A stretch of 64,000 nt of DNA, from the IMG/VR virus record IMGVR_UViG_3300028827_000129, positions 62,001 to 126,000 of that record; one strand, given 5' to 3'. A program made the translations under genes and the position numbers. Shown here one piece after another: positions 3,631-50,395 of this stretch. The stretch comes from a virus. The notes beneath the pieces are model-generated. The model was given only the letters and a program-made list of their open reading frames with translations. It was not told the DNA's origin and searched no databases. Numbering within the stretch: the first letter of the stretch is position 1; each line of letters begins with the position of its first letter.

Positions 3631-3735
3631 AAGGAGTGAGTGAATGAAATTTTCTAGCATTGAAGTCAAGAACGTTTTAAGAAACTTCGGTTCTTAAAAC
3701 GCAAAGACGGAAATGCAAAAGAAAATTTCATTCAC
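3631..3735 (+). ncRNA. Nested-stem structured RNA element, copy 1
   Basis: Three perfect stems nest inside each other. P1 is 15 bp (3640-3654 with 3721-3735), P2 is GCATT/AATGC (3657-3661 with 3712-3716), and P3 is 11 bp (3673-3683 with 3691-3701) capped by ACTTCGG. They are separated by purine-rich internal loops containing AAGAACG and AAGACG. No gene uses this stretch. The second locus at 19515-19628 has the same upstream block and the same layout with different stem sequences. It could be a free small RNA on the + strand, where no sense gene follows, or a minus-strand leader of the NADAR gene. Function unknown. Confidence 0.5.
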
Positions 3736-3744
3736 GGCATTCAT

Positions 3745-3800
3745 TAAATTACAGTTTCCAGTTTACCATTTTCCAGTGTACCTCCTTCCTTTTTACCTCT
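3745..3800. repeat. CAGTTT-type degenerate repeat, no gene
   Basis: Short direct repeats of the type CAGTTTCCAGTTTACC followed by TTTTCCAGTG and TTTTTACCTCTTACC resemble the degenerate CAGTTT/TTACC intergenic repeats common in some bacterial chromosomes. The remainder up to 3879 has a second short repeat (TTATGTTATGC and TGATGTTATGCC, around 3841-3885). I see no convincing gene in 3736-3879. Confidence 0.35.
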
Positions 3801-3879
3801 TACCAAGCAAAGATAAAACAAAGAGGCCTTATATTAGCCTGATGTTATGCCGCGGAGTTACTTATTCGAAAGCCTTATG

Positions 3880-4215
3880 TTATGCAGATGAGCCGGGCTT
3901 AGAAAAAGAGTTGCGGAGTAAGAAAAGAAAAACCGTCCAGAAAGCAATCTCGTAAGCAGCAAAATAAACAAGTGCCCACAAGATGCCCGCAAAGCCATGA
4001 AGAACATATACAAGCGTAAACATCGCAAGAATCATCACTGACACAATAATAGTGTCAGGACGATCGTACCTAAAAAAGTTCTTTAACAACATCCACACAC
4101 CCTCCATCACAGCACAGAGCTTATCCTTCAAATACTTAAAGAAGCTCTTGCGCCTAAAAACACCATCCTTCTCCTCAAGCTCAATAACAACCAACTTCTT
4201 TCTTCTCTTACACAT
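3880..4215 (-). CDS. Small membrane protein, two transmembrane segments
   Basis: A 111-residue product with a basic N-terminus (MCKRRKK), an amphipathic middle, and two hydrophobic segments (around 58-75 and 78-98) connected by a tight Gly turn. Its C-terminus is short and polar. AGGAGGTAACTAAC precedes the ATG, and the TAA inside that spacer is the stop of the 31-residue gene upstream, so the two are coupled. No family recognised. It is the last of a run of small membrane-associated proteins. Confidence 0.65.
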   Translation of the reverse strand: MCKRRKKLVVIELEEKDGVFRRKSFFKYLKDKLCAVMEGVWMLLKNFFRYDRPDTIIVSVMILAMFTLVYVLHGFAGILWALVYFAAYEIAFWTVFLFLLRNSFSKPGSSA

Positions 4216-4216
4216 G

Positions 4217-4312
4217 TTAGTTACCTCCTTTAAAGAGATGTACTACCCAATACGAGTAGAAGACAAAGAAGTATATTACACCAATAGCAAGGTACTGAAG
4301 AAAAGCTTTCAT
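4217..4312 (-). CDS. 31-residue single-span membrane microprotein
   Basis: ATG at 4312 with AAGGAG eight bases upstream and stop TAA at 4217-4219. The product is MKAFLQYLAIGV followed by a hydrophobic aromatic helix to VVHLF and a short basic end (KGGN), so nearly the whole protein is one membrane span. The start overlaps the previous stop as ATGA and the stop falls within the Shine-Dalgarno spacer of the next gene. That arrangement is unlikely by chance in a non-coding stretch. No family recognised. Confidence 0.6.
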   Translation of the reverse strand: MKAFLQYLAIGVIYFFVFYSYWVVHLFKGGN

Positions 4313-4542
4313 TGTTTTTTCTCCTTTCTTTTAAGATATTCCTTAGCTACACCACTTAAAGGGTCTTTTTTATCCCGCGCAATTTTTCTAATGCACGGAA
4401 CAAGATCTCGTAAACGATGCATTCTCCCATCATCCGGTACACAACGAATCAAAAGATAATACTTCTCATAGCCGGTCAACTTATAGTCGGCTTCTGCAAC
4501 GCCGACTAACAACAACACAACCAAAAAAGCGCGCCAAAACAT
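4309..4542 (-). CDS. Secreted or periplasmic small protein
   Basis: A 77-residue product with a cleavable-type signal peptide: MFWRAFLVVLLLVGVAEA, with the A-E-A pattern suggesting cleavage before DYKL. The mature part is basic with two Cys (34 and 50), which could form a disulfide outside the cytoplasm. The stop overlaps the next ATG as ATGA. Phage proteins of this kind can act in superinfection exclusion or lysis timing, but nothing here identifies which. Confidence 0.65.
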   Translation of the reverse strand: MFWRAFLVVLLLVGVAEADYKLTGYEKYYLLIRCVPDDGRMHRLRDLVPCIRKIARDKKDPLSGVAKEYLKRKEKKQ

Positions 4543-4543
4543 A

Positions 4544-4771
4544 CTAAACCTCCTTAATCCTAACGGTCAAACCGTTATAGCAATTATGGTACTTTACATA
4601 AGTACCATTACGACTCCTTTTAAACAAAGAAAGTACAGAAATTAACCCATTCTTAATGGGTATATCAAAACCAAACAACCTCCTACAATAATCATCTAAA
4701 CATCCCTCCAGTGTTGGATAATAAACATCCAACACTTTCTTCTTGCCAAGATAATAAGTAACCTTGAACAT
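4544..4771 (-). CDS. Hypothetical 75-residue protein
   Basis: It starts one base beyond the stop of the 226-residue gene upstream and ends one base before the next start, so it is tightly packed in the leftward operon. The product has a short strand-rich N-terminus (MFKVTYYLGKKKVLDV) and a C-terminal YNGLTVRIKEV, and reads as a small alpha/beta cytoplasmic protein. No family recognised. Confidence 0.6.
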   Translation of the reverse strand: MFKVTYYLGKKKVLDVYYPTLEGCLDDYCRRLFGFDIPIKNGLISVLSLFKRSRNGTYVKYHNCYNGLTVRIKEV

Positions 4772-4772
4772 A

Positions 4773-5453
4773 CTAAATATCCTTCAAAATATCATAAGAA
4801 ACGCGCAAATGCCAATTACAAAACAAGCACTGCGTGATATAACTACCTCCATATTCTTTCTCATCCAAATTACCAAACACAGACTCACCGCAATTAGGGC
4901 AAAGTCCATCATCCGGCACACGAGGCATCAAATCATTTTCGGCACAAAACCGTTTTTGTGCCAAAACCTTTCTCTTCAAATCACCAAACATCTCCTCAAA
5001 TACCTCCAAAGAAATAACTCTCCTACCCATAATACACAAACAGTTCTTCAATGGCTCAGTGTAAGCATACATACACCTTCCCCAAGCCCAAAAGAACTGC
5101 TTATATCCCTTCAAAGCCGGGGCATAAAACTTCATCATAGTAGCCTCTTCTACATCCTTCGCAGGAATAATCATCTTAGAGGGCCAAAAATAAAGCCCAA
5201 AAGGCAACCTCTTAACAGGATATACTCCCTGCTTTATCCGCGCATACACACTATCTAACTTTGCTCTCATATCAGGTGCCACAAGAGCAAACTGCACAAG
5301 TTCATAATCACTATGCTTTCTCAGAAAATTCGATATGGAACCCCAAGAACCATATCTACCTTTCTGAGTAAAATAAAAAGGGTTACAACCCAAAGGGTAC
5401 TGTAACCCAATCGTCTCATTTTCCTTACTATACAACATAAACCGATAAGCCAT
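4773..5453 (-). CDS. Hypothetical protein with C-terminal zinc ribbon
   Basis: A 226-residue product. The C-terminal part carries CPNCG (around residue 185) and CLFCNW (around 209), a two-CxxC treble-clef or zinc-ribbon arrangement. The N-terminal 170 residues are rich in aromatic residues and Gly and match no family I know. An AAGGAGG-type Shine-Dalgarno precedes the ATG. It sits mid-operon among small membrane and zinc-binding proteins; a nucleic-acid or protein-binding role is possible but not shown. Confidence 0.65.
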   Translation of the reverse strand: MAYRFMLYSKENETIGLQYPLGCNPFYFTQKGRYGSWGSISNFLRKHSDYELVQFALVAPDMRAKLDSVYARIKQGVYPVKRLPFGLYFWPSKMIIPAKDVEEATMMKFYAPALKGYKQFFWAWGRCMYAYTEPLKNCLCIMGRRVISLEVFEEMFGDLKRKVLAQKRFCAENDLMPRVPDDGLCPNCGESVFGNLDEKEYGGSYITQCLFCNWHLRVSYDILKDI

Positions 5454-21263: not shown

Positions 21264-22091
21264 ATGAGCAACGAAAAACCAAACAAGAAACAAATCGAAG
21301 ATTTGTTGGGCGAAGACATGAAAGATGTAAAGTTTTATAGTCCTGAAGGTTATGGCAGAGCAAAGAAGGCGCTTGTAACGCTTAGTGGGCTAGCTTTGAC
21401 TCAAGATGGAAAGCTAACAAAGCACGATTGGTTTGACTTTCTTGATGTTAAGCTAGACAATTATGACGATATCATTTTGTCAGCTGATGATGCTAGACGA
21501 TTACAACATTATTTCAAGAAGTTGTCTACCGGCACTGTTTCTACGATACCCATGTATTGCGGAGGAGAAAAACATTGCCCACAAGCTGACTTTTGTGAGT
21601 TTGTAAAGTTAGGTAAAATACCTTTGGGTAGAAGATGTTTAGTGGAAGTTGAGTTAGTTGATTTTTGGACCAAACGGTATCTTGAAGAATATGATGTCGA
21701 TGTAAATGACCAGACGGATGTTTATATGATTGGTGAGCTAGCTGAGCTTAATGTCTTAGAAATGCGGATTAATAACATTTTAGCCAAATTTGAAAACTCA
21801 GAATTATCTGAAGTTACAATAGCTGGTCAGGACCAAGATGGCAGACCGATAGAAACGGTAAAAATTAGCCGTTTTTGGGAAATTAAAGAGTCGATTAAAA
21901 ACCGCAGACTTAAAATACTTGAGGCATTAGTAGGAACAAGAAAAGATAAGTATAAGAGGGATGCTGCACTAAAGCGGATGGACAGTAGTGATGGAAAGAC
22001 TTCGCTTGCAGAATTAAAACGTACTATCGATGAATATTTAAAGCAGCAAGAAATTGTAATAGACCAAGCAGAAGATATTACAAGGAAGTAA
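21264..22091 (+). CDS. Putative terminase small subunit or packaging-linked protein
   Basis: A 275-residue product with a helical N-terminus, a Cys cluster (MYCGGEKHCPQADFCEF and GRRCLVE, roughly 96-130) and a long charged C-terminal helix region (IKNRRLKILEALVG to EYLKQQEIVIDQ). The position upstream of the terminase large subunit and the helical oligomer-like C-terminus would suit a small terminase, but four genes intervene and no clear helix-turn-helix is visible, so this is tentative. No Shine-Dalgarno; a TATAAT lies eight bases before the ATG. Confidence 0.4.
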   Translation: MSNEKPNKKQIEDLLGEDMKDVKFYSPEGYGRAKKALVTLSGLALTQDGKLTKHDWFDFLDVKLDNYDDIILSADDARRLQHYFKKLSTGTVSTIPMYCGGEKHCPQADFCEFVKLGKIPLGRRCLVEVELVDFWTKRYLEEYDVDVNDQTDVYMIGELAELNVLEMRINNILAKFENSELSEVTIAGQDQDGRPIETVKISRFWEIKESIKNRRLKILEALVGTRKDKYKRDAALKRMDSSDGKTSLAELKRTIDEYLKQQEIVIDQAEDITRK

Positions 22092-22092
22092 A

Positions 22093-25000
22093 ATGTTACA
22101 TAGTAATAATTTTTTTAGGAATGCTTGGTTTCTTGATTTTGAGACGACTGGTCTTAACCCATCCCAGCATTATATCTGGGAAGTTGGTTATGCCAGATTC
22201 AGTGATTTAGTTTCTCCTAAAGGTAAATATAGACATTTCTTCATTAAGCCCCCGGGTGAATACAACACGGGGGCTCAAGAATTTTTAGCACATTATCGAT
22301 CTATCACTTCCCCAAAAGTTCTTGATCTTTTTGGCGTCAGAGGCTCTGAGAAGCCGTTTGTCGAGCATACACGACATCTCTTATCGAAACTATCTCAAGA
22401 CGAAAGAGAACGCCTTGGATTGCATGAGAGACGTCCGTGGCAGGAAGAAATTTCATTTATTAAAGAAAGACAGAAAGGCCGCGTTACTGGGTTTGCTGCT
22501 TTAGAGCATGCTTTAAGAGGACAGAAAGGTGCTAGTCATGTTAGGTCGTTAGAAGAGTTTTGGAATAGATTTTTTATAGAAGTCCCAATGAGAGGGTCAG
22601 ATGTCTGGGTTCAAAACTTATACTTTGAATCTAGCTTTGCTGCACAACATATCCCGAATAATTTATGGACTCAACATAAGCGTTCAATAGAGCGGTTTGA
22701 CCCAATAAGCCGTCGATTTCAACAACCTCTAGAGTTATTACAGGCAAGATCAAAAGCTTTTACTGCAGGCGATCAAATTTCCGCATGGGCTGATTATTAC
22801 AAGACATTAAGAGATGTTGTAGCAGCCGGGCCACAGAAGGGACAAATGCGGTTTTTTGACCTTATGGACCTTAGCCGCAGCATGGTAGCTCTTGCTAAGC
22901 AAAGAGGATATATAAATCCTAATCAGGGTATAGGTCTTTCAGTTGAGAGCTTCTTAAGGGCTGCTACTGCATCTGGAGATAAGCAATTTGAGTCTTTTAG
23001 GGGGAAGCTTGATGAGATTTTATCATTGGGCTATGGTGATTTAGAGAAGCATAGAGCCGTAAGTGACATTAGAGTCGAAGCGTTAATGGCCCAAAGATAT
23101 CAGCGCATAGCTGAAGCTTTATACCAAGGCCATGCTTTATCTGAAGAAGACGCCGCATTGTTAAATGCTTTACAAGATAAAAAGTTACATAGAGACATAC
23201 ACATAGAAAGGTTCAAGAATACAATTAGTGAAGCATATGAAATTGCTAAGAGTCCAGCTGGATATAAGCTGCTTGTTGGTAAGTATCCAGACTTATTCCC
23301 CGAATTTGGTACATTCAGGCCTGTTGTTGAGAAAACAAGGCCAAGTTTACGTGGACAAACATTAGAGTTGGAGCAATTTAATTACAGCTATTTTCATTCA
23401 GAGGTTGCTACAGAAAAAGATTTAAAGTCTATTTTGAAGTATCATATTCATGAGCTTAAACAGTATGTCGATATCGGAAACGAAGAATTACGGGATATTA
23501 TTAAGAAAGCTATTCCAAGAGACGTTGATGTCTCTGGCATTGTAGAAAAGCCTTCATTTGCAGAGAGCGCAGCTGGTGGACTTAAAAGATTTATTCGAGC
23601 ATCGGCAAGAGACTTGAAGGGCATTAGGTATGGTAATTTACTCGGAGTGCCGCTTGGACTTCTTGCTGTTGCATATGGCGTGCGTTCATATATGATGAAA
23701 AATGAAGATGACTTTGAAGCTATTGTATCAGACGCGCAAATTTCTAGCGATGATGAGGATTATATCCAGGTAGAAGCATTAAGTCACAAGGGCCTATCTC
23801 ATATCTCCAGAAGACAGTTGACTGATTTTGGGAGTGGCTGGCAAGGATTGCCAAAGAAGATTTTCCATGGTGCTCATGTTGGGATTTTAGAAAAAGAATT
23901 CAAAGGCTTATTAGCTAGAACAACAAAGCATATTCATGAAGGTGTTGCTGAAAGAATTTATGGCGTTTGGTTTACATCAAGCTTTAAGGAAGCAGAGGAG
24001 ATAGCTCAATTAAGAGCAGCAGCAAGAGGTACAGAGCCAGCAATCTTTGAAATTGATACAGAAGTCTTGCAGAAATATCATGTGCCTTTCCAGTCGTTTA
24101 AGGCTGAAGATGATATTATGCATTATGCTGTACAAAGAGATATCCCTATATCATTTTTGAAGATGCATAAATTAAAGACGCGCAGCCTTGAGAAAGAAGA
24201 GAAGGTTTTTGAGCTTGATATTGATGATGTATTAAAAGATTCAAAAATATCAGCCAAAGATGATGATTACAATACTATCGAATCCCTAAAACATGAAGGC
24301 GTAGCCGGAAAAAAGCGTAAAAAGAATACTGATTTCGGTAGTGGATATAGAGGTTTGCTTAGTGCACATAATTGGGAAGGCAGAAATATAGCAGAAGAGA
24401 TATTGGATTTTAGAAATGAATATATTCTTGACAAGCGCAATAGAGATGATTTGCGAGGTAGATTGCACCAAGAGCAGATTAAGGCATTAGCGAGACTTGG
24501 GCGATTCAAAGGGAAAGAAGTGCATTTAGCGACCGATCTGCCTGAATTTATTCATACAAACAAGAAGTTATATTATGTAAACACTGATGATTTTAAAGTA
24601 ACTATTGAAGACGCAGACACGTTGATTCTTAAAAGACGAGGGCTTTTAAATATATTCGACAAGCCAATCTATATCCGCGTTGCTGGCCTTGACGCCCCTG
24701 AAACTGAAGCCCACGATTTAGATCCACTATCTTTTGTTAGATGGCACCAGTCACAACCTATGGGCGAAGAGACGACAGAATTATCTAGAGATGTATACAA
24801 AAATTTGTCTCGCATCTATTTCAATCCTAGCAGACTGACATATGGTAGATATGTTGGAGTCTTAACGGACGATGAAGGAACTAATTTAAACATAAAGGCC
24901 CTAGAGGCAGGCTTGGGTACAGAGCTTTATTGGAGCAGAGATAGTTTATTTAATAAATCAGATCTTAAAAATGCGGAAGATTTTGCGAAGATAAGAGGCA

Positions 25001-25323
25001 ATGGGTTATGGCAAAGTACATATTGGCTTGCAGAAGATTATATTAATCATAACATTACGCATAACACATTGACTAGGATAGACAAGCTTGCTGAGGATGC
25101 AAACTATGCCGAGCTTGAAACTTTGCTTTATGACATAGAGAATCGTGGTAAAATCACAAAGGAAGATAGGGCTAAATTACGTATTTTGAGTGATAGTATT
25201 GTTGCAGATAAGGCATATAGGAAACGTTCGATGTCTTATTATGCTTATAAAAAATATTATTCTGGGCATGTAGGGACTGTCCAGGGGCTGCACGATAGGA
25301 AAATAAGCCACACAAAGTATTAA
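22093..25323 (+). CDS. Multidomain protein: DEDDh exonuclease, membrane segment, thermonuclease
   Basis: A 1076-residue product. Residues 12-22 give LDFETTGLNP (Asp15, Glu17) and HRAVSDIRVEA (His320, Asp325), the ExoI and ExoIII motifs of DEDDh exonucleases. Residues about 515-532 are hydrophobic (LLGVPLGLLAVAYG). DYIQVEALSHKG to TDFGSGWQGL (about 556-586) and DYNTIESLKHEG to TDFGSGYRGL (about 725-755) are two copies of one motif. Between them, HGA, GVWFTSSFKEAEEIA and DIPISFLK faintly recall ADP-ribosyltransferase folds. Residues about 830-1000 match staphylococcal nuclease: DADT, IRVAGLDAPET, YGRYVGVL. It is probably a virion or injected protein. Confidence 0.75.
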   Translation: MLHSNNFFRNAWFLDFETTGLNPSQHYIWEVGYARFSDLVSPKGKYRHFFIKPPGEYNTGAQEFLAHYRSITSPKVLDLFGVRGSEKPFVEHTRHLLSKLSQDERERLGLHERRPWQEEISFIKERQKGRVTGFAALEHALRGQKGASHVRSLEEFWNRFFIEVPMRGSDVWVQNLYFESSFAAQHIPNNLWTQHKRSIERFDPISRRFQQPLELLQARSKAFTAGDQISAWADYYKTLRDVVAAGPQKGQMRFFDLMDLSRSMVALAKQRGYINPNQGIGLSVESFLRAATASGDKQFESFRGKLDEILSLGYGDLEKHRAVSDIRVEALMAQRYQRIAEALYQGHALSEEDAALLNALQDKKLHRDIHIERFKNTISEAYEIAKSPAGYKLLVGKYPDLFPEFGTFRPVVEKTRPSLRGQTLELEQFNYSYFHSEVATEKDLKSILKYHIHELKQYVDIGNEELRDIIKKAIPRDVDVSGIVEKPSFAESAAGGLKRFIRASARDLKGIRYGNLLGVPLGLLAVAYGVRSYMMKNEDDFEAIVSDAQISSDDEDYIQVEALSHKGLSHISRRQLTDFGSGWQGLPKKIFHGAHVGILEKEFKGLLARTTKHIHEGVAERIYGVWFTSSFKEAEEIAQLRAAARGTEPAIFEIDTEVLQKYHVPFQSFKAEDDIMHYAVQRDIPISFLKMHKLKTRSLEKEEKVFELDIDDVLKDSKISAKDDDYNTIESLKHEGVAGKKRKKNTDFGSGYRGLLSAHNWEGRNIAEEILDFRNEYILDKRNRDDLRGRLHQEQIKALARLGRFKGKEVHLATDLPEFIHTNKKLYYVNTDDFKVTIEDADTLILKRRGLLNIFDKPIYIRVAGLDAPETEAHDLDPLSFVRWHQSQPMGEETTELSRDVYKNLSRIYFNPSRLTYGRYVGVLTDDEGTNLNIKALEAGLGTELYWSRDSLFNKSDLKNAEDFAKIRGNGLWQSTYWLAEDYINHNITHNTLTRIDKLAEDANYAELETLLYDIENRGKITKEDRAKLRILSDSIVADKAYRKRSMSYYAYKKYYSGHVGTVQGLHDRKISHTKY

Positions 25324-25342
25324 ATTTATATTATATTACAGC

Positions 25343-25933
25343 ATGAGACAGAATCAAATATATAAATTCGCTAGACGGGCTCAAAGGTCAGTTCAACGTT
25401 TTGGTTCTAGGGTTGCTAGAGATTCAGAGCGTTTTGTTGTTGGTAACCCGATCAAGAGGGGGCTGACTTGGGGCGCATTTACGTTTGGGATTGAAGCCCC
25501 TTTTATGAAGAGCCCATTTATGAAAGCAGCTATATTGGGCGGAGGGATATTGACAGCTAATCAAGTTCTTAACAGCGAAAGGGGCGTAATTGTAGAATCT
25601 GCAGATATTATGTTTTCAGGCTTTGGTGCAGGTTTTGGATCGTCTGCTTTTGCAATGCTTGGCGGTGCTGTTATGCCTGGATTAGGTCATGTGATTGGGT
25701 GGGCGGCAGGAGCTTTAATTGGTGGCGGTTTAGGATCAGAAGTTGTTGATGAGATCCATAGAGCTGCTATAAAGGGTCATTCGTTAGCAGTGCCTACCTT
25801 TAGAGGTGGTAATAAATTTATAGATTCTGAAATGACGTATACAATGAGACAGAGGGCAGTTGCTGCTATTCAAAAATCACATATGAATGCTAGGTTTATG
25901 TTAGGCAATGAAGCAAGAATTATGCATGTTTAA
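25343..25933 (+). CDS. Glycine-zipper membrane-active protein
   Basis: A 196-residue product with a basic N-terminus and a long small-residue hydrophobic core (AAILGGGILTANQ, GAGFGSSAFAMLGGAVMPGLGHVIGWAAGALIGGG written in parts here), typical of glycine-zipper domains that insert into membranes. Given its place between the nuclease fusion and the terminase, it may form part of the DNA ejection channel. No Shine-Dalgarno; TATATT precedes the ATG by a few bases. Confidence 0.6.
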   Translation: MRQNQIYKFARRAQRSVQRFGSRVARDSERFVVGNPIKRGLTWGAFTFGIEAPFMKSPFMKAAILGGGILTANQVLNSERGVIVESADIMFSGFGAGFGSSAFAMLGGAVMPGLGHVIGWAAGALIGGGLGSEVVDEIHRAAIKGHSLAVPTFRGGNKFIDSEMTYTMRQRAVAAIQKSHMNARFMLGNEARIMHV

Positions 25934-25945
25934 GGGGAATATAAC

Positions 25946-26530
25946 ATGGCTAATATAAGGTCTAATGAAGGGTTTAATAGCTGGGATGCAATAAGACTTG
26001 GTACCGGGCTTATGTTAGGCGGATGGGGTATCCGCATAGCGTCTAAAGCGATGTCTCGCTTTGTTGGAGATACTCTTTTCGGTACTTTAAAAGGTGCTGG
26101 TAGTTATGCTATGAGAAAGGGGACAAAGCTTGCTGGTAGGTCTTATGAGTTCTCTAAGAATGCAGCGACTTCTGCATATTCTGGGTTTCTTTCTGGCTAT
26201 AGAGGTGAGGCTGGTGTAGGTACAGCTTTTATGGCAGGTAGTCGCGCAAGGGCTTTAAGTGCTGCAGCAAGGAGGAGCGCTTCTGCTTTTTCTTATGGTT
26301 TTTCTGGACGTGGGCCAATGTCTGCTTTTGGCGGCACTAAATATACCCGCGCTGCTGCTAGTCTTGGCAATTATTTTGGCGGTGGTGCGGCTGGCCTGGG
26401 AGCTTCTAAAACTTTATATAGCAGATTGCAGCCTCATCTTGGTGATATTTCTCAAAGGGCTTTTACTAGAGCTATGAGGGTTGGAGGAGCATCTCTAGGC
26501 GCTTATATGCTAAACCCGTTTAGTGATTGA
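25946..26530 (+). CDS. Gly/Ala/Ser-rich virion-type protein
   Basis: A 194-residue product starting MANIRSNEGFNSWDAIR. AAGGGG lies nine bases before the ATG. The N-terminal part has a hydrophobic Gly-rich stretch (LGTGLMLGGWGIRIASKAM) and the rest is low-complexity Gly/Ala/Ser/Arg with helical character. It resembles ejection or inner-virion proteins in composition. No family recognised. It directly precedes the terminase gene. Confidence 0.55.
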   Translation: MANIRSNEGFNSWDAIRLGTGLMLGGWGIRIASKAMSRFVGDTLFGTLKGAGSYAMRKGTKLAGRSYEFSKNAATSAYSGFLSGYRGEAGVGTAFMAGSRARALSAAARRSASAFSYGFSGRGPMSAFGGTKYTRAAASLGNYFGGGAAGLGASKTLYSRLQPHLGDISQRAFTRAMRVGGASLGAYMLNPFSD

Positions 26531-26538
26531 GGCAATTT

Positions 26539-28425
26539 ATGGCAGACAATGATTCTCAACGCTATGTAAAGAATGGTCCAAACTTCGACAATCCTATCTG
26601 TCAGGAATGTCTTAAAGAAGAGAGGAACCATTATGTAAAATGCAGAGGGATTATAGACCCGGAGAAGTTTATACCTCCGGGTCTTGCTACTTCACTTGAT
26701 GAGGATCAATTGCTTGAGTTAAAGGCAGCTTATGACCCTGTTACTTGGGCCAATTTATATCTTGGCTGGTCTCCAAGGTCTAGTAGGGAGTATCATTTTT
26801 ACGATAGAGATTCAAATATACCAGATATACATATAGAGGCGGGGATTGAGTATCAAAAGACAATGTTAAACTGTTCTGCCTACAGGACTATGTATCGCGT
26901 CGGTAGGCGTGCAGGTAAAACAGATGCTTTATGCGTGTTTACTCTATATAAGCTTGTAACAAATAGTGATTATAAGGTCTTGTTTATTGCCCCGCAAAAA
27001 TCTCATGTAGATAACTTTTTCGAGAGATTTGATAAGTTAATAGAAAGTAGTGATAGAATTTCTGCTGATGTTGTCAGAAATGTATCGTCGCCACATAAGA
27101 GGATAGAGTTTAGTAACGGCAGTCGTATTGTAGGCTTTACGTCTGGGTCTTCTTCTGGCTCGCAAGCCACCAATGTTCGAGGGCAGTCAGCTGATTTAAT
27201 TGTTATAGACGAGTGGGATTATCTTAATCCTGAAGACATGAAAGCTATCCGGGCTATTTTGATGACAACCCCGGATACTATTTTAAAAGGGGCGTCTACC
27301 CCTTCTGGGCGTAGAGATCTTTTCTATGTTGAGTGCAACACGATTGGCCACAAAGAATTTCATTATCCATCACAGGTTTTACCATTCTGGAATGATGACA
27401 TGGAGCGCGAAATGCGCTCTATGTATACGGCAAATGAATATAGACAAGAGATTCTTGCCGAATGGGGCTTTGATAATGTTGGTGTCTTCCAGAAAGAACA
27501 TGTAGATAAATGTCTTTTAGATTATTCATATGAAGATATAAAGCCTGAGTCAAAGTTTTTATATGGAATAGGCGTTGACTGGAATGACGATAAAATAGGG
27601 ACGCAAATTTATGTAATAGGTTATAGTACTGAAGATTGTTTATTTTATGGAGCTGCTAAATATAATGTTGCTAAAGCTGGATGGACCCAAGCTTTAGCCA
27701 TAAAGAAAATTATAGAACTAAACAGAATATGGAATCCAGTTTTTATTTACGTAGACGAAGGATATGGAGCGACGCAGATTCAATTATTACGGCAATATTC
27801 TTATGAAAAGATAGGTAAAGTTTCGCCTAGCGATCCAGATGTCAAGTTAAAGGATATAGTAAAGGGCATCAATTTTTCGTCTAAGGTAGATGTTAGAGAT
27901 CCTATTACAAGGCAGCCTGACAGAAAAGATATGAAGCAATTTTTAGTTCAGAATGCTGTTAGGCGGGTAGAAGATGCTACTGTCAGAATACCATCGACTG
28001 ACAAGGAGTTAATTGGACAATTACTTAATTATATTATTTTAAGGCGTAGCGCTACTGGCAAGCCTATTTATAGCCCGAATAGTACTAAGATAGGCGACCA
28101 TTTATTAGATGCATTTATGCTTGCTTTACTTGGGTTTACTTTAGAATATGGAGACCTTATTAAAACCAAGGCCGTGTCTACTGTCAGCTTTGTGAATACT
28201 GGTGATAGCACTAGAGAAGATTTAATCCAAAAAAGATATCCAGAAGAAAGATCGGTTGATAGAACCAATTATTTTGCTATTGGAAGAACAGGGACTGGCA
28301 AAGTAACAAGGGATAATATTTGGAAATGGCCAGGGTTTTTGAGAGATGAACCATTACCTAGACCTAACAGAATGTTTCTTGGTCGTGGTAGACGCAACCA
28401 TATAAATAGAAGGAGCGTTTGGTAA
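26539..28425 (+). CDS. terL: Terminase large subunit (DNA packaging motor)
   Basis: The start at 26539 (MADNDSQRY) follows GAGG by six bases. The 628-residue product has Walker A GRRAGKTD (122-129), Walker B LIVIDEW (220-226) with the catalytic Glu, and a C-terminal RNase-H-fold nuclease with GIGVDWND near residue 350, IYVDEGYGATQ, and IGDHLLDAFMLALLG. It pumps DNA into proheads and cuts concatemers. An N-terminal CQEC plus Cys35 may bind zinc. Located immediately before the head genes, as usual. Confidence 0.95.
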   Translation: MADNDSQRYVKNGPNFDNPICQECLKEERNHYVKCRGIIDPEKFIPPGLATSLDEDQLLELKAAYDPVTWANLYLGWSPRSSREYHFYDRDSNIPDIHIEAGIEYQKTMLNCSAYRTMYRVGRRAGKTDALCVFTLYKLVTNSDYKVLFIAPQKSHVDNFFERFDKLIESSDRISADVVRNVSSPHKRIEFSNGSRIVGFTSGSSSGSQATNVRGQSADLIVIDEWDYLNPEDMKAIRAILMTTPDTILKGASTPSGRRDLFYVECNTIGHKEFHYPSQVLPFWNDDMEREMRSMYTANEYRQEILAEWGFDNVGVFQKEHVDKCLLDYSYEDIKPESKFLYGIGVDWNDDKIGTQIYVIGYSTEDCLFYGAAKYNVAKAGWTQALAIKKIIELNRIWNPVFIYVDEGYGATQIQLLRQYSYEKIGKVSPSDPDVKLKDIVKGINFSSKVDVRDPITRQPDRKDMKQFLVQNAVRRVEDATVRIPSTDKELIGQLLNYIILRRSATGKPIYSPNSTKIGDHLLDAFMLALLGFTLEYGDLIKTKAVSTVSFVNTGDSTREDLIQKRYPEERSVDRTNYFAIGRTGTGKVTRDNIWKWPGFLRDEPLPRPNRMFLGRGRRNHINRRSVW

Positions 28426-32867: not shown

Positions 32868-34781
32868 ATGGCTCATATATCGTTTAAAGATTTTTTCCAT
32901 TTTGATGCTAGCGCAATTAAAGATAATGTAAAGTTTTTTCATGAAACAAAGGATAGTGCTTCTGAAACTGGGCATTCAATAAAATGTCAAATCAGAGCTA
33001 CATTTTCTGCTGTTATAAATAAAAATAATAGATTTGATATGCCTCATGCTGTTAAAAAGGGCGCTGCATCATTACTTGACGAGTACCCAAAACCTATATT
33101 AGTAGGTCATTATGATGAAATTGATCCTATTGGTCGCGTCTCCGATTATGAATATGTAGATATTTCTTCACAGTTCCAAATTCCTAAAATAAAATCATTT
33201 CTTGACCCTAAGACATCTTATATATCTAAGTTAAAAGTTGTTGATTTCATTGTCGAAAACTTGATTCCGCTAAAAGGTTATAAAGGCCTTGGCTATATAG
33301 ATGTCATAGCAGACATAAGCGACCCGAGGGCTATAAGAAAGATATTAGATGGCAGGTATTTAACTGTGTCAATTGGCGGTAGATCCGACAAAATGGTCTG
33401 CTCAGTATGCAAGACGGATTGGGTTAGCGAAGATTATTGTGAACATACTCCTGGCGTCGTTTATGACGGGAAAAGGGCTTTTCTTATAAGTGGCAATATA
33501 TTATATAACGAAATATCATTTGTGAATAAGCCCGCCAATCCACATAGTCAGGTAGTGAAGATTGACGAAGCAAATAATGTGAGGGATGAAGTAAGAATTG
33601 GTTCTAATGATGATTTTAATGATCATTGCTTAGTGAGTTTTGATTTAACAGATTCTTGTCAAGGAGAAGAAGAGATGGCGGTAAAGAAGAAGAGAAAGAA
33701 GAAGGTTGAAGATATTGAAAAAGACATCAAAGATAAAGATGTCAATACTGAAGATAAAGAAGAGGTAAAAGATTCTAAAGCCAATGATGACGTAAAAGAT
33801 AATAATGTTGATGAAGAGCAGAAAGAGCATGAGAATGTAAAAGCTTCTTCTGAAGATAACGAAAATAATGGTAATGTAGTTGACGAAGAAGAAAAAGAGG
33901 ATAGTTCTAAAGAAGAAGAGCTTCCTGCTATTGAAGAAATTATCAAAGACGAAGAGGCTAATTATGAGGCGATTGCTGCTGTTTTAGATGAATTAGAGTT
34001 AAGCGATGCAAAATTAAGCGCAGAACAGCGTAAAAAGTTAAAGGGTTCTACATTCTGCGGCCCTAATAGATCTTTTCCTGTTCCTGATTGCGCTCACGTA
34101 ACTGCTGCGAAGCGTCTTTTAGGGAGATATAAAGGAAGCGGTTCTAAGTCTGCTATTCTTGCTTGCGTTGAAAGAAAGGCAAAGAAACTTGGATGTAATA
34201 AAGATGCTGAAGAAGAAAAGAGTAACAATCAAGCTACTAATGAAACTAAAGTAACTGATAAAGAGCTTCTTGAGCAATTTAATGGTCTAGTTGAGCAATT
34301 GAAAGAGCGCGGTATTTATAAGTGCCCAGAGTGTGAATCGCTCCAGAAGGATCTAGAAGATAAAAATAATGAGTTATTTGTTGTTAATTCAAGGAATACA
34401 GTTCTTGAAGATGAGATTAACGCTGTAGAAGAAAGTTATGTTGAATTAAAAGATAAATTTAATGAATATAAAAAAGACGTGTTAAAGGTATACAAGAAGG
34501 CTTTAGGAGAAGATGAGAGTATTACAGATAAAGAAGTTGAGGATTTAGATAACATTTTAGATAGCTATAAGGAGAAGATTAATAATCCTCAGTCAAAGAC
34601 AGAAGATAAGGATTTCGAAAAAATAGAAGACCCGACTCTGAAAGATGACAACAACAGTGAAGACAAGAGTAAAGTTGCTGCAGTTAAAGACATTATGGAT
34701 AAATATCATTTAATCCGTAGATTATATGGACTGAAGGCTGCTAGCGATTTTATTCAAAAATCGATCAAGAGTAACAAATAA
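32868..34781 (+). CDS. Prohead protease fused to scaffold
   Basis: A 637-residue product; AAGGAG lies before the ATG. Residues 1-235 look like a head maturation serine protease, with VGHYDEIDPIGRV (His81) and LTVSIGG (Ser168), plus a zinc-like CSVC and CEH (178-193). Residues about 270-370 are a very acidic/basic disordered linker. Residues about 390-445 hold the FCGPNRSFPVPDC element seen in phage head proteases and scaffolds, then coiled coil to the end. A second start with a strong ribosome binding site lies in frame at 33675. The protease would process scaffold and capsid during maturation. Confidence 0.82.
   Translation: MAHISFKDFFHFDASAIKDNVKFFHETKDSASETGHSIKCQIRATFSAVINKNNRFDMPHAVKKGAASLLDEYPKPILVGHYDEIDPIGRVSDYEYVDISSQFQIPKIKSFLDPKTSYISKLKVVDFIVENLIPLKGYKGLGYIDVIADISDPRAIRKILDGRYLTVSIGGRSDKMVCSVCKTDWVSEDYCEHTPGVVYDGKRAFLISGNILYNEISFVNKPANPHSQVVKIDEANNVRDEVRIGSNDDFNDHCLVSFDLTDSCQGEEEMAVKKKRKKKVEDIEKDIKDKDVNTEDKEEVKDSKANDDVKDNNVDEEQKEHENVKASSEDNENNGNVVDEEEKEDSSKEEELPAIEEIIKDEEANYEAIAAVLDELELSDAKLSAEQRKKLKGSTFCGPNRSFPVPDCAHVTAAKRLLGRYKGSGSKSAILACVERKAKKLGCNKDAEEEKSNNQATNETKVTDKELLEQFNGLVEQLKERGIYKCPECESLQKDLEDKNNELFVVNSRNTVLEDEINAVEESYVELKDKFNEYKKDVLKVYKKALGEDESITDKEVEDLDNILDSYKEKINNPQSKTEDKDFEKIEDPTLKDDNNSEDKSKVAAVKDIMDKYHLIRRLYGLKAASDFIQKSIKSNK
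33675..34781 (+). CDS. Nested in-frame scaffold protein (internal start)
   Basis: Inside the protease gene, AAGGAG (33661-33666) stands eight bases before an in-frame ATG (MAVKKKRKKKVEDIEKD). Initiation here would give a separate 368-residue scaffold with the charged linker, FCGPN element and coiled coil but no protease. Lambda C/Nu3 and similar phages use exactly this overlapping arrangement to make excess scaffold. Seen in sequence; expression is inferred. Confidence 0.6.
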   Translation: MAVKKKRKKKVEDIEKDIKDKDVNTEDKEEVKDSKANDDVKDNNVDEEQKEHENVKASSEDNENNGNVVDEEEKEDSSKEEELPAIEEIIKDEEANYEAIAAVLDELELSDAKLSAEQRKKLKGSTFCGPNRSFPVPDCAHVTAAKRLLGRYKGSGSKSAILACVERKAKKLGCNKDAEEEKSNNQATNETKVTDKELLEQFNGLVEQLKERGIYKCPECESLQKDLEDKNNELFVVNSRNTVLEDEINAVEESYVELKDKFNEYKKDVLKVYKKALGEDESITDKEVEDLDNILDSYKEKINNPQSKTEDKDFEKIEDPTLKDDNNSEDKSKVAAVKDIMDKYHLIRRLYGLKAASDFIQKSIKSNK

Positions 34782-37312: not shown

Positions 37313-37753
37313 ATGAAAATTAAATTAAAGCCTAATTGTCCAGCTTGGGGGTTATTAGATCAAGATGGCAAGAAGGCTATCTTTTTTTTAAATCGCAGAA
37401 ACCCTGAAGTTGAAATTGATTATTTTTCTTTACCAGAACATTTGAGAGGTGTAATCAATAGAGGTGTGGCTTTAGATTTTATTGAAGTTAGTGAAGAGCC
37501 AAAGGTAGAAGTTGTAGAGCCTGAAAAAGTTGAAACTGTTAAAGACGACCGCGTGATTAAACCAGCTGAATTAAATAGACGGGCCAAGGATTTATTGCGT
37601 GGTAATATTACTAAAATTCGCAAGAATATTAAGGACGAAACTCTTACTTGCACGATTGTAAAAAGAGCGCTTTATTTAGAAAAATCTAGAAAGAAGCCTC
37701 GTAAGATGGTTGTTAGTGTTTTAAGCGGATGGTTAGAAAAAAATGAATGTTAG
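37313..37753 (+). CDS. Hypothetical protein, 146 residues
   Basis: The start at 37313 (MKIKLKPNCPAWG) has GAGG five bases upstream, overlapping the bS21 stop region. A small N-terminal domain (GLLDQDGKKAIFFLNRRN) is followed by an acidic Val/Glu/Lys-Pro linker and a basic helical end. The form suggests a small head-tail or decoration-type structural protein. No family recognised. Confidence 0.55.
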   Translation: MKIKLKPNCPAWGLLDQDGKKAIFFLNRRNPEVEIDYFSLPEHLRGVINRGVALDFIEVSEEPKVEVVEPEKVETVKDDRVIKPAELNRRAKDLLRGNITKIRKNIKDETLTCTIVKRALYLEKSRKKPRKMVVSVLSGWLEKNEC

Positions 37754-38642
37754 TTTTTTTTATCCATCAGATGGAACTACTGGTGTGCCGATTGGAGAGA
37801 CTATTTATGCAGACTTTGACGCTATAGTTGATCCAGGATCAATTAATGCTTCAACCTTTATTGTTGTAGATACTTCTGATAATAATCGTGTGGTTGAGGG
37901 TTCATATGATATTACAGATACATCGTCTGGAAGTAGAGTATCATTCACCCCATCTTTTGATTATAATTCATTAACTACATACAAAATAATTTTATCAAAA
38001 TATATTACTGCTGATACATTAATTAATTTTACAGGAGATGCGTCTAAAGTTTCTTTTAGTGGGCCTTATTTGGGGTCTTCTGCTGATACGTATCATATTA
38101 CCATAGCTGATCCTGGAGGTGCCGTCGGCGAAGCTCAATTCACGTGGTATAAAGCTTCGGCTCCATTGACGATAGAAGGTCCATTTACTGCAGATGGAAC
38201 TGTCATTTTAGATTCAGGCATTGTAGTAAATTTTTGGGGTGGGACTTTAGCTTCAGGAGAAACTTTTTCTATAGATGTTATCCCTGCCGATTATTTACCC
38301 CAAACTTATTCTTGGACATTTACAACGGGTTCTGGGGATGCAACATCTGCTCCTCCAGCGCCATCTACATCTATTTCTAATGTTGATGCGATTGTCAGTA
38401 AGTTATTGTCGGTTATTAATATTACACCAGAGTTTGGGTCTTATAACGTAGTCCCTAGTAGCAATGGTACTTTAGATATAAGAATAAAATTATCTGATGA
38501 CATAGACCAAGCAACAGTCAATAGTGATAATATTTCTATTTCAGTAAAAGACATTGAAACTGGTGTAATAAAGACTGCTACCTTTACGCTTTCTGTAGAG
38601 AACAATGATACAATTTTAATTAGTATTTCTGATATCAGTTGA
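37743..38642 (+). CDS. Ig-like (Big_5-type) virion protein
   Basis: A 299-residue, strand-rich, Ser/Thr/Asp-rich product. The N-terminus FYPSDGTTGVPIGETIYADFD and later TPEFGSYNVVPSSNGTLDIRI have the Pro-x-(D/F)G-x-x-x-V-P pattern of bacterial Ig-like Big_5 domains, probably two copies. Such domains occur on phage surfaces, where they may bind host glycans. It overlaps the previous gene by 11 bases. Confidence 0.65.
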   Translation: MNVSFFYPSDGTTGVPIGETIYADFDAIVDPGSINASTFIVVDTSDNNRVVEGSYDITDTSSGSRVSFTPSFDYNSLTTYKIILSKYITADTLINFTGDASKVSFSGPYLGSSADTYHITIADPGGAVGEAQFTWYKASAPLTIEGPFTADGTVILDSGIVVNFWGGTLASGETFSIDVIPADYLPQTYSWTFTTGSGDATSAPPAPSTSISNVDAIVSKLLSVINITPEFGSYNVVPSSNGTLDIRIKLSDDIDQATVNSDNISISVKDIETGVIKTATFTLSVENNDTILISISDIS

Positions 38643-46849: not shown

Positions 46850-49800
46850 ATGCCTCAACCTACTCCTTTAATCCCTGTTGATCCTGAAGAAAGAAAAAAG
46901 AAAGGGATGCCGTGGGGGGCTGCTACTACAGCAGCCCTTATTGCTGGGCATGATCTAATAGAGATTCCTCTTATTAAGAGGTGGTTTTCTGCTAGATCTG
47001 GAATAAGGAGCTCAAGATTAACTTATCTTAATTTAGGTCTTTTTATAGCCCCCAATCAGCGTCCTGCTGGTATACAAAGTTTTAGAGATTTAACTGGCCG
47101 TTCAGAAGCTCTCGTTAAAGATGTTATTTATGAGGGCATAAGGCGACTAGAAGAGACTCCTACTAGAATTTTCCGCACTTTTGAATTATCTTCTTTATTT
47201 TCGACCATTGTATTTAGGGACACTAGCGGTGCAGTTGCTAGGTTTTCTGGAGAAGAAGCCTTAAAGTTACGTAAATATGTTACTCGTTTAGCCGGCAGAG
47301 ATATTGGAGTAGAAGAAATAGCTGGCGGCATGAGAGTTATTAAAGGCTCTTTATACGGAGTCAATGTCAATGGAGAAATAGGCAAAGAGCCACTCGTCAA
47401 ATTTGTAACATTCATGCAGCGCAAATGGACTCCGTATCATGAGAAAATTAAAGGAGCCAGGCAAGAAAGACTTTCTCATTACAGCAAATTAGCCAAAGAA
47501 TACGAGGCTATGATTGCTGGAGAGGACTTTGGCAGAATAGCTGCACACAGGGGCGAAAGCGACTTTTTACTTTTGGTAGGTGGACGTAATCGCTCTGAAA
47601 GTTCTATGCGCACAATCAATGCCTTTTTGAGAGTGCAAAGTAAGAAATTTTTTCATTTGCTTGACGATCCTTTTGAAGCTTTACAAGAGATTACAGGCGT
47701 TGTTAGCAAAAGGTTAGGTCGCGGTTCTCGTCTTTGGGAAAAAATAGGCATTAGGGGTAAATTAGGTCTAGCAGGTGATTATTCTGGGTCTCTAGCTGAA
47801 ATGTGGGCCAGATGGCTTTTGCCTGGCAAAGGTAAAATGGGATGGAGGCTTGGTGCAATTGGAAGCTTTGTAGCGCTGCCTTTTATTTATAAAATAGCAG
47901 AAGCGCATTTAAAGGTCCCTAACACCATTCTGGAGGAAGGCCCGACAGCAGCATTGGCCACCTTATATGCTAAGGGGGATATTTTAAGAGGTCAAGTTAG
48001 TGAAGCTTTAGGAATACAAAGCTTCATTGAAAAACAAGAAGAATTAGCGCCGGGATCTACAAAGGGCATAATGTCTTACTTAGCATTCCCTGCCTCGTTC
48101 GCTATGACGGGCGCTGTGGCCTCCGGAGCCCTTACCATGACCCATCGGTTAAGTAAGGGTATGTTAGGGGCTAGAGAGGAGGCTCAGGCCCTCAGAAGGC
48201 TTTCTGGGCCGCTAGGTAAGCTTATAAAGAAGAGTTTGCCGAGAGCTCATCGTTGGGCATATTACGGAGCTGCTATTGGAGCTATTGCTGCTGCTCCATT
48301 TGCTTTGGGTGCTGCCTTAGCGACAGTATTTGGACGCAAGCCAGTGCAGCAGCGAAAAGAAGAATATGCAGGAATTAGAGAAATACCAATCCGTAAAGGC
48401 AGATGGTGGGAAGCTGGAAGAACTCCTTATGAAGGCGGGCGCATTCTTACATATGCACCGCACTTTGTCGTAAGGGCCAGAACTCACGCTAAAGAGAAGG
48501 CATTGTATGGAGAGTACTGGGATAAACCGATTACTCGACTATTTAAATCTATAGTTGATCCTTATTGGCTTGAGCGTATGCATAATGAAGATAGACCATA
48601 TCCAATATGGGGGCCATCTGATCCAGGGTTAGGATTTTTGGGTACAATATGGCAGCATACATTAGGGGCTCTATTCAAGCCGCCAGTTTATGTAAATCAG
48701 GACAAGTATATTACTGAATCAGGAGAATATATCGATAGAGACACTAATTTAAAATATGAACCATCCTATCGTTTAGGTGGAGAATTACCAGATATGCCTG
48801 AGCCTAAGACTGGCTGGAAATATGCACTCTCAGAGATAAAGAGAAGGCTAGCTGATACATTTGGATTGACTGGTTTTGCCTTAGAGTCTGTAGAAGAGAA
48901 AATGACTGGCAGCACAGACCTATTTGAAGATAAAAGGTTTTTAGCTTCTTCTGCAGAACTAGATTCAACAGCTGCAGATTTCTGGGGATTGCACCTTGGC
49001 GGAGGTCTTACAACAACTGAAGCATTACGTAGGATCTATTTTAAAGAACGTCCTAATATAGAAGTTGTTAATCCTGCTGAAAACAATATGCCATCATGGC
49101 TGCCAGGTGACGATTATATGGTTAATTTCCATACTGGAAATCCTTATACAAAAATCCCTATGGGTGAATATGTTTTGCCAGGACCAGCATATGAGGAACT
49201 TCACCCAGAGTTAAAAGGTGTCCCTTATGAAGACTACCCGCTAATCCATAAATTGAATATTCTTAAGAATGTAGCTGTTTATAGTAAAGAATTTACTGAA
49301 TATGCAAAGACGGCTAAACGTATTATAGCTGAAGGGAAAGAGGACCAGGCATATATAGAGCAGCTTAATAGTATTTTGGAGCAAGCTGCTCAAATGAAAA
49401 AACTTGAAGTGCAAGAGATCCCTGATGATAATATTATATCTTCTTATTGGAGTCTTTTAAATGAATCTGCTGCTAACCCTACAGAATATTTAACTCCTAT
49501 TGCCCCTATTCATAAATTTGTCCATACAATGGGGCCTATAGATACATATAGAGATACGCAGATTCTTTCAAGTGAAGTTACTTTGTGGAATAAGCCTTAT
49601 GAGCATTTTATAAAGCCTGCTATTAGACATTTGTTTGGTGTAGCATATGATGATTATGTTCCTAAAGAAGTAAGAGAAAGGCAGAATTTATCTGATTATT
49701 TTGAAGCTTTAAAATATATCAAATATAAAAATCTTCTTAACATTGCTAAAGAACGTGGGCTGCCAAGTTACTTATATGAAAGAAGAGTAAAATCTAATTT

Positions 49801-50395
49801 ATTTGGCATTAGCTCTGCATCAAGAGAAGATGATTTATATTATGCATTACCAAGGATTGATAAAAAATTCTTTGAATTTTTTATCAATGCGGAAGGGGAA
49901 GAACGCGAGGAGATCAGTAATTTAGTTTCTCCCATGATAGCTAGGGCCTATAATATATTTTGGGCAAAGCATGATGGAAAATCTTCGTATATTCCGGCAT
50001 TTACAGCATCTGACGTAGAAGAATATTTGGAAGATAAACCGATTCCTGGACCTAATTGGATAGGCTGGGACAGTGATGTAGATTTAGAAGATATAAAACT
50101 AAAGCTTCTAGAAAGAAATTTTGAAGATTTTACGGAGTATGACATTTGGGGGGACCAGATTAGAGCATCTAAAAGGAAGCCTTATTTAGAAAGGGCTTTA
50201 GATGAGTTTAATGTCAAGAGGTCGAAAGCAGAAGTAAAGAAGCAAATAGAACAAATGTTATATGGCAATGGTTTAGAAAATGTAGAAGTTTTAGTCGATG
50301 ATTATACTGGGGAAAATGTTATATTTTTTGAAGGGAAGGATTCTCAAGAAAAGTACCTGAGATCGCAGATGAGAGATATGGGATTTTTTAGTTAA
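46850..50395 (+). CDS. Giant virion protein 1 (tape-measure slot)
   Basis: A 1181-residue product. It has at least three hydrophobic Gly/Ala-rich segments (near 345-360, 405-425 and 470-490, for example YYGAAIGAIAAAPFALGAALA), a basic region (GRKPVQQRKEEY), and a large soluble C-terminal half with PSWLPGDDYMVNFHTGNPY. It lacks the long repeated helices of a classic tape measure. With its partner at 50398 it may serve as a two-part tape measure or as injected channel proteins. No family named. Confidence 0.6.
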   Translation: MPQPTPLIPVDPEERKKKGMPWGAATTAALIAGHDLIEIPLIKRWFSARSGIRSSRLTYLNLGLFIAPNQRPAGIQSFRDLTGRSEALVKDVIYEGIRRLEETPTRIFRTFELSSLFSTIVFRDTSGAVARFSGEEALKLRKYVTRLAGRDIGVEEIAGGMRVIKGSLYGVNVNGEIGKEPLVKFVTFMQRKWTPYHEKIKGARQERLSHYSKLAKEYEAMIAGEDFGRIAAHRGESDFLLLVGGRNRSESSMRTINAFLRVQSKKFFHLLDDPFEALQEITGVVSKRLGRGSRLWEKIGIRGKLGLAGDYSGSLAEMWARWLLPGKGKMGWRLGAIGSFVALPFIYKIAEAHLKVPNTILEEGPTAALATLYAKGDILRGQVSEALGIQSFIEKQEELAPGSTKGIMSYLAFPASFAMTGAVASGALTMTHRLSKGMLGAREEAQALRRLSGPLGKLIKKSLPRAHRWAYYGAAIGAIAAAPFALGAALATVFGRKPVQQRKEEYAGIREIPIRKGRWWEAGRTPYEGGRILTYAPHFVVRARTHAKEKALYGEYWDKPITRLFKSIVDPYWLERMHNEDRPYPIWGPSDPGLGFLGTIWQHTLGALFKPPVYVNQDKYITESGEYIDRDTNLKYEPSYRLGGELPDMPEPKTGWKYALSEIKRRLADTFGLTGFALESVEEKMTGSTDLFEDKRFLASSAELDSTAADFWGLHLGGGLTTTEALRRIYFKERPNIEVVNPAENNMPSWLPGDDYMVNFHTGNPYTKIPMGEYVLPGPAYEELHPELKGVPYEDYPLIHKLNILKNVAVYSKEFTEYAKTAKRIIAEGKEDQAYIEQLNSILEQAAQMKKLEVQEIPDDNIISSYWSLLNESAANPTEYLTPIAPIHKFVHTMGPIDTYRDTQILSSEVTLWNKPYEHFIKPAIRHLFGVAYDDYVPKEVRERQNLSDYFEALKYIKYKNLLNIAKERGLPSYLYERRVKSNLFGISSASREDDLYYALPRIDKKFFEFFINAEGEEREEISNLVSPMIARAYNIFWAKHDGKSSYIPAFTASDVEEYLEDKPIPGPNWIGWDSDVDLEDIKLKLLERNFEDFTEYDIWGDQIRASKRKPYLERALDEFNVKRSKAEVKKQIEQMLYGNGLENVEVLVDDYTGENVIFFEGKDSQEKYLRSQMRDMGFFS

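Follow-up and report, generated by a model that had tools for sequence, protein, structure and literature searches.

What is a protein with two nuclease domains doing just ahead of the terminase gene of a phage? What is known of polyvalent phage proteins comes mostly from their sequences, and their route into the host is the question addressed here. Such proteins, found in phages and conjugative elements (PMC5512222), carry ADP-ribosyltransferase (ART), kinase, GNAT and peptidase domains and have been proposed to be packaged in the capsid and injected (Iyer et al. 2017, PMC5512222), a proposal restated in work on jumbo phages (PMC7824862). The protein that concerns us, P0001, is encoded in the window, by which we mean the whole 64,000-nucleotide stretch analysed (bases 62001-126000 of a 170,083-base virus record), and both a terminase and a portal are present there by profile match. 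The reading frame of P0001 is open throughout, its ATG falls one base past the stop codon of the preceding gene, and AAGGAAG stands directly upstream of that ATG. The features needed for the argument are as follows.

21264-22091, plus strand: upstream neighbour of 275 residues that marks the slot; homologues are ME3_9 and proteins in KLEB27-3 and MTATph1
22093-25323, plus strand: P0001, modular protein of 1076 residues, the entire gene (translated reading frame)
22111-23127, plus strand: predicted DEDDh-type exonuclease domain, residues about 7-345 (phrog_192, invariant residues, model and fold matches)
23638-23694, plus strand: weak hydrophobic segment containing Gly and Ala, residues 516-534 (hydropathy)
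23737-23850, plus strand: 38-residue linker motif, copy 1, diverged, residues 549-586 (own-genome E 1.5e-13)
23851-24243, plus strand: possible ART-like domain, residues 587-717 (PF18760, below cut-off)
24244-24357, plus strand: 38-residue linker motif, copy 2, canonical, residues 718-755 (own-genome E 1.0e-24)
24598-25020, plus strand: staphylococcal-nuclease (SNase) domain, residues about 836-976 (PF00565, phrog_8809, catalytic motifs aligned)
25264-25320, plus strand: C-terminal tail of P0001, GHVGTVQGLHDRKISHTKY, resembling the tails of small neighbour proteins in relatives
25343-25933, plus strand: glycine-rich small protein of the gz1 family with a conserved C-terminus (comparison of relatives)
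25946-26530, plus strand: second glycine-rich small protein, gz2 (reading frame, comparison of relatives)
26527-28425, plus strand: large terminase subunit, bounding the slot on the right (phrog_2, E 2e-29)
32868-34781, plus strand: probable prohead protease/scaffold, 637 residues (family and position of ME3_20 and of KLEB27-3 gp014, 'prohead protease')
46850-50395, plus strand: tape-measure protein of 1181 residues without the 38-residue motif (homology); its homologues in the relatives L002, L006 and L007 carry the motif module N-terminally

An earlier note on this DNA had read DEDDh residues at the N-terminus of P0001 and SNase motifs (DADT, RVAGLDAPET, YGR...) at its C-terminus, and profile searches of the parts bear out both, the exonuclease through PHROGs and the SNase above the Pfam cut-off. 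In the N-terminal part, phrog_192 (DNA polymerase exonuclease subunit) matches residues 7-62 at E 7e-9, and Pfam adds weak RNase_T and RNase_H_2 matches. An alignment of 11 sequences, P0001 and ten relatives at 14-20% identity, leaves D15, E17, H320 and D325 as its sole invariant columns, exactly the residues that had been named, and these supply the DxE of ExoI and the HxxxxD of ExoIII expected of a DEDDh exonuclease. E179, within NLYFES, occupies a plausible place for the ExoII Asp and is likewise Glu in ME3_11 and L007, in a region where the alignment is uncertain. From the same alignment, residues 1-420 were modelled with AF2 (pTM 0.62, mean pLDDT 54); the top Foldseek matches of this model are all DEDD exonucleases, the best being the PolC exonuclease 2p1j (E 3.3e-3), and its best VIA match is T4 DexA (Z 8.5, modestly over background). 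The confidence of the model is modest, yet the predicted RNase H-like exonuclease fold agrees with the conserved residues and the profile match. Some relatives have lost the exonuclease residues, as in the N-terminal part of L004, so exonuclease activity is presumably not essential in all of them. The SNase domain matches PF00565 at E 1.4e-7 (32.4 bits, where the cut-off is 21), phrog_8809 spans residues 836-976, and the catalytic motifs are intact (DADT at 840-843, IRVAGLDAPE at 861-870, YGRYV at 917-921) and align with those of L002, L027 and L035.

The membrane segment that the same note had placed between these nucleases, near 515-532, fared less well: a hydrophobic segment is indeed present, peaking at residues 516-534, but with a mean hydropathy of 1.39 it is only weakly so. 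It resembles a weak Gly/Ala helix rather than a classic transmembrane segment, and a true membrane anchor is doubtful.

The main feature of P0001 was overlooked at that stage: the protein contains two copies of a 38-residue motif with the consensus xISGKDDDYNTIEGLxHxGxAGxxRKxxTDFGSG. A tblastn search of P0001 against 50,697 phage records gave no match, nor did its middle stretch against phage records, and the viral contigs found in the search for relatives match mainly two short stretches, which are the copies of this motif. A profile search, with a score above 18 bits taken as a clear copy, found 47 copies in 22 distinct viral proteins, at most five per protein, confined to a single protein in each phage record searched; no confirmed match appeared in GTDB genome contigs, and the motif is absent from the ME3, KLEB27-3 and MTATph1 records. 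The copies stand at borders between differing cargo domains. What had been taken for a single odd fusion belongs to a modular family whose members have a linker motif in common.

Is the motif maintained as protein or as DNA? Copies within one protein share 59% amino acid identity and 40% identity at four-fold sites, and copies from different phages share 60% and 40%. The DNA is randomised at synonymous sites while the peptide is kept, which indicates selection on the protein and a function for the peptide. A recombination repeat at the DNA level, or the trace of a recent duplication, would explain why the motif recurs in tandem within one gene and at module borders and would give it no protein role; yet copies within a protein are no closer than copies between phages, which argues against both, and we consider this origin very improbable indeed. 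We also considered a strong transmembrane segment ahead of every motif and rejected it, since upstream hydropathy exceeds 1.6 for only 2 of the 22 first copies; most first copies are preceded by a weaker hydrophobic stretch. Cleavage by the prohead protease at the motif would predict common sites, and a search for T-I-E and FGSG in the other head genes of the window found nothing convincing, so this role is unsupported by shared sites. The motif would instead act as a spacer or recognition element at the level of the protein, permitting cargo exchange at domain borders, and perhaps as a site of processing or unfolding for passage. One could go further and speculate that the motif serves a system devoted to exchange and release: some phage factor, such as a protease or a loading factor, would recognise it as a universal spacer, and large phages could thereby string any effector domains together in a single polypeptide carried by the virion, whether as a protein of its own or as the N-terminus of a tape-measure protein expelled through the tail. 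We hold this extension to be rather unlikely.

What lies between the motif copies? When compared with one another, the motif-delimited pieces fall into recurring module families in differing orders, together with many singletons. By profile, the cargo includes a DEDD exonuclease, a Cas4/RecE-like nuclease in L005 and L007, SNase in L002 as well as P0001, and an ABC1/protein-kinase-like domain in L004 and L022. DnaJ cargo in L018 scores E 1.9e-4, below the cut-off, and phrog_13942, a family of unknown function, matches L018 at E 8e-11; the J-domain-like piece (L018:4665-5156) has an HPD motif and lies between linker motifs. GNAT-like, HExxH and caspase/CHAT-like stretches are possibly present in L024, L026, L018 and L025, as read from sequence motifs, and Pfam did not confirm them in these four. 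The L025 stretch (3662-4969), possibly caspase/CHAT-like, has FSGHG and later ESC, with no Pfam match. In P0001 itself, residues 587-717 match the ART-PolyVal family PF18760 below threshold (E 0.021, 16 bits against a curated cut-off of 31.2); run over the 170-kb record, PF18760 has this stretch between the motifs as its sole match (E 0.0014), and a Tpt1-type family also matches it weakly (0.052). We take both families to be ART-type folds, and the stretch is a possible ADP-ribosyltransferase domain; a single-sequence model of it (pLDDT 43) is too poor for a fold or catalytic triad to be read. The family looks like an exchangeable toolkit of enzymes between constant spacers, and P0001 has two sure nuclease domains and one weak ART-like stretch.

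As had been remarked before, two glycine-rich frames (25343-25933 and 25946-26530) and then the large terminase follow P0001. In relatives, too, a homologue of the 21264-22091 protein precedes the motif protein, and small Gly-rich proteins and then the large terminase come after it; this slot is conserved within the packaging and head gene block of ME3/0305phi8-36-like phages. Its flanking families recur in cultured phages as ME3_9 and ME3_12 (the latter through its C-terminus), KLEB27-3 gp005 and gp009, and MTATph1 CDS0247 and CDS0252, and in ME3 the slot is occupied by ME3_11, which has the tail FVNFNNRNKHYMY and, besides the DEDDh residues, a hydrophobic segment towards its C-terminus.

Several other genes have peculiarities of their own. 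The body of the gz1 family varies while its C-terminus, TMRQRS..AIQ.S..NGR.ALGNEA, is kept; ME3_9 (L037:4078-5373) has an intein-like insert and is annotated as an RNA methyltransferase; large terminase frames of more than 900 and up to 1123 residues in L003, L004, L023, L025, L026, L027, L033, L035 and L036, against 632 in the window, suggest inteins or inserts; and a bacterial Ig-like (Big_5) protein is encoded at 37743-38642, directly after the major capsid gene.

Short tails also recur in the cluster. The small protein beside the motif protein ends in STxGLxQGLHxGRH in 12 relatives, and a profile of this tail run against 548 C-termini gave as its three best untrained matches the L029 motif protein, P0001 and KLEB27-3 gp008, all weak at 7-8 bits and with a rank probability near 1e-4 for 26 candidate proteins picked afterwards. 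The C-terminal tail may be a loading signal, which we offer as a lead. Tails conserved in this way, and the adjoining terminase and Gly-rich head-block proteins, might also be expected of a structural or packaging accessory whose nucleases trim or process DNA at the terminase or portal and whose motif attaches to a component of the head. Conservation would be expected of a packaging nuclease, whereas the cargo is highly variable among relatives, and in one phage, G001, the slot lacks the protein; we regard such an accessory role as distinctly improbable.

G001 is the phage of L002, and its terminase region is complete, with no P0001-type protein in the slot: after a homologue of the 21264-type protein (E 4.6e-58) come small proteins, two HNH-like genes and the large terminase. 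It is the one phage with a slot seen complete and empty among three that carry the module elsewhere, as a fusion with the tape-measure protein. The motif shares one open frame with the homologue of the 46850-50395 protein in L002 and L007 (1839 and 2411 residues), and in L006 a motif-bearing frame of 895 residues holds the first part of that homologue, the remainder lying in an overlapping frame. The window's 46850-50395 protein matches ME3_35, which GenBank ties to YP_001429636 of 0305phi8-36; by the numbering of the records, where p112 is YP_001429602, this is orf146, which was assigned as the tape-measure protein from tail length (PMC2147016). Together, the fusions and the empty slot of G001 indicate that the module is either a separate gene or part of the tape-measure protein. 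The L007 fusion (L007:7841-15073) also contains an intein-like insert, at about residues 1300-1720, that matches by tblastn an intein-bearing ribonucleotide reductase gene of Tenacibaculum phages.

Does P0001 act from within the virion at all? It could instead be a membrane-associated nuclease, made late, that stays in the infected cell and degrades either the host's DNA or that of a superinfecting phage during its entry. The hydrophobic segment adjoins two nuclease domains, and a location among head genes is by itself no proof of packaging, but the segment is weakly hydrophobic, three relatives have the module joined to the tape-measure protein, itself part of the virion, and kinase-like and J-domain cargo elsewhere fit poorly with pure DNA exclusion. 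We consider a nuclease outside the virion unlikely.

We think it probable that a lytic-type phage with a contractile tail, from the ME3/0305phi8-36 lineage, uses P0001 as a polyvalent effector: virions would carry the protein and release it together with the DNA, its nucleases would attack nucleic acids, and its motif would allow cargo to be exchanged. That the protein is a virion-carried effector had been suggested earlier, and it is the best-supported reading given the head-block slot, the tape-measure fusion in three phages and the ME3 slot protein; a true membrane anchor is doubtful, and candidate targets are host DNA, RNA, signalling nucleotides and defence factors. P0001 would be synthesised alongside head and packaging proteins, be taken up into the virion, perhaps by means of its C-terminal tail, and enter the new host along with the phage DNA, a delivery step that we infer from gene position and the tape-measure fusion. 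Passage through the tail tube requires folded domains this large to unfold, which counts against delivery. Once inside, the DEDDh exonuclease and SNase endonuclease would, judging by domain identity, attack host DNA or RNA or a nucleic-acid-based defence, the region flanked by the two motif copies may modify some host protein, and the other cargo domains would act on host proteins.

How does this family compare with known systems? By its architecture P0001 fits best in the polyvalent class: it joins multiple enzymatic domains in one polypeptide of a phage with portal and terminase, the family's cargo overlaps that of polyvalent proteins (ART-like, kinase-like, possibly acetyltransferase and peptidase), and delivery with DNA is proposed for both. 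Unrelated activities in one polypeptide are clear in L018, with its kinase-like and J-domain cargo; P0001 has two nucleases and the weak ART match. The common 38-residue linker and the DEDDh N-terminus in a fixed pre-terminase slot set the family apart. Neither SNase nor J-domain, both cargo here, appears as a word in the main text of PMC5512222, which does not mention fusion to a tape-measure protein either; no mention of the linker motif, the fixed slot or the tape-measure fusion was found in the published texts searched, and these would be new traits of the class. ME3_11 of Acinetobacter phage ME3 shares with P0001 the pre-terminase slot, N-terminal DEDDh residues, a hydrophobic segment (near the C-terminus in ME3_11) and a short basic, His-containing tail; unlike P0001 it has 529 residues and neither the 38-residue motif, SNase nor extra cargo. 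T4 Alt, an injected ADP-ribosyltransferase, is a head-packaged enzyme delivered with DNA (PMC5512222), the mode proposed for P0001, but it has a single activity and an unrelated sequence, and in P0001 an ART is weakly assigned. Where head proteins with a MuF domain are fused to effectors, a virion protein likewise carries exchangeable enzymes (PMC5512222), whereas P0001 gave no MuF match and in three relatives the tape-measure protein acts as carrier.

In conclusion, a marker peptide singles out one polyvalent-type protein per phage, and the variable cargo between its copies is a source of candidate anti-host or anti-defence enzymes. The natural relocation of the module, from a gene of its own ahead of the terminase into the tape-measure protein, is a direct clue to the route of delivery, and the cultured phage ME3 makes the carrier testable.
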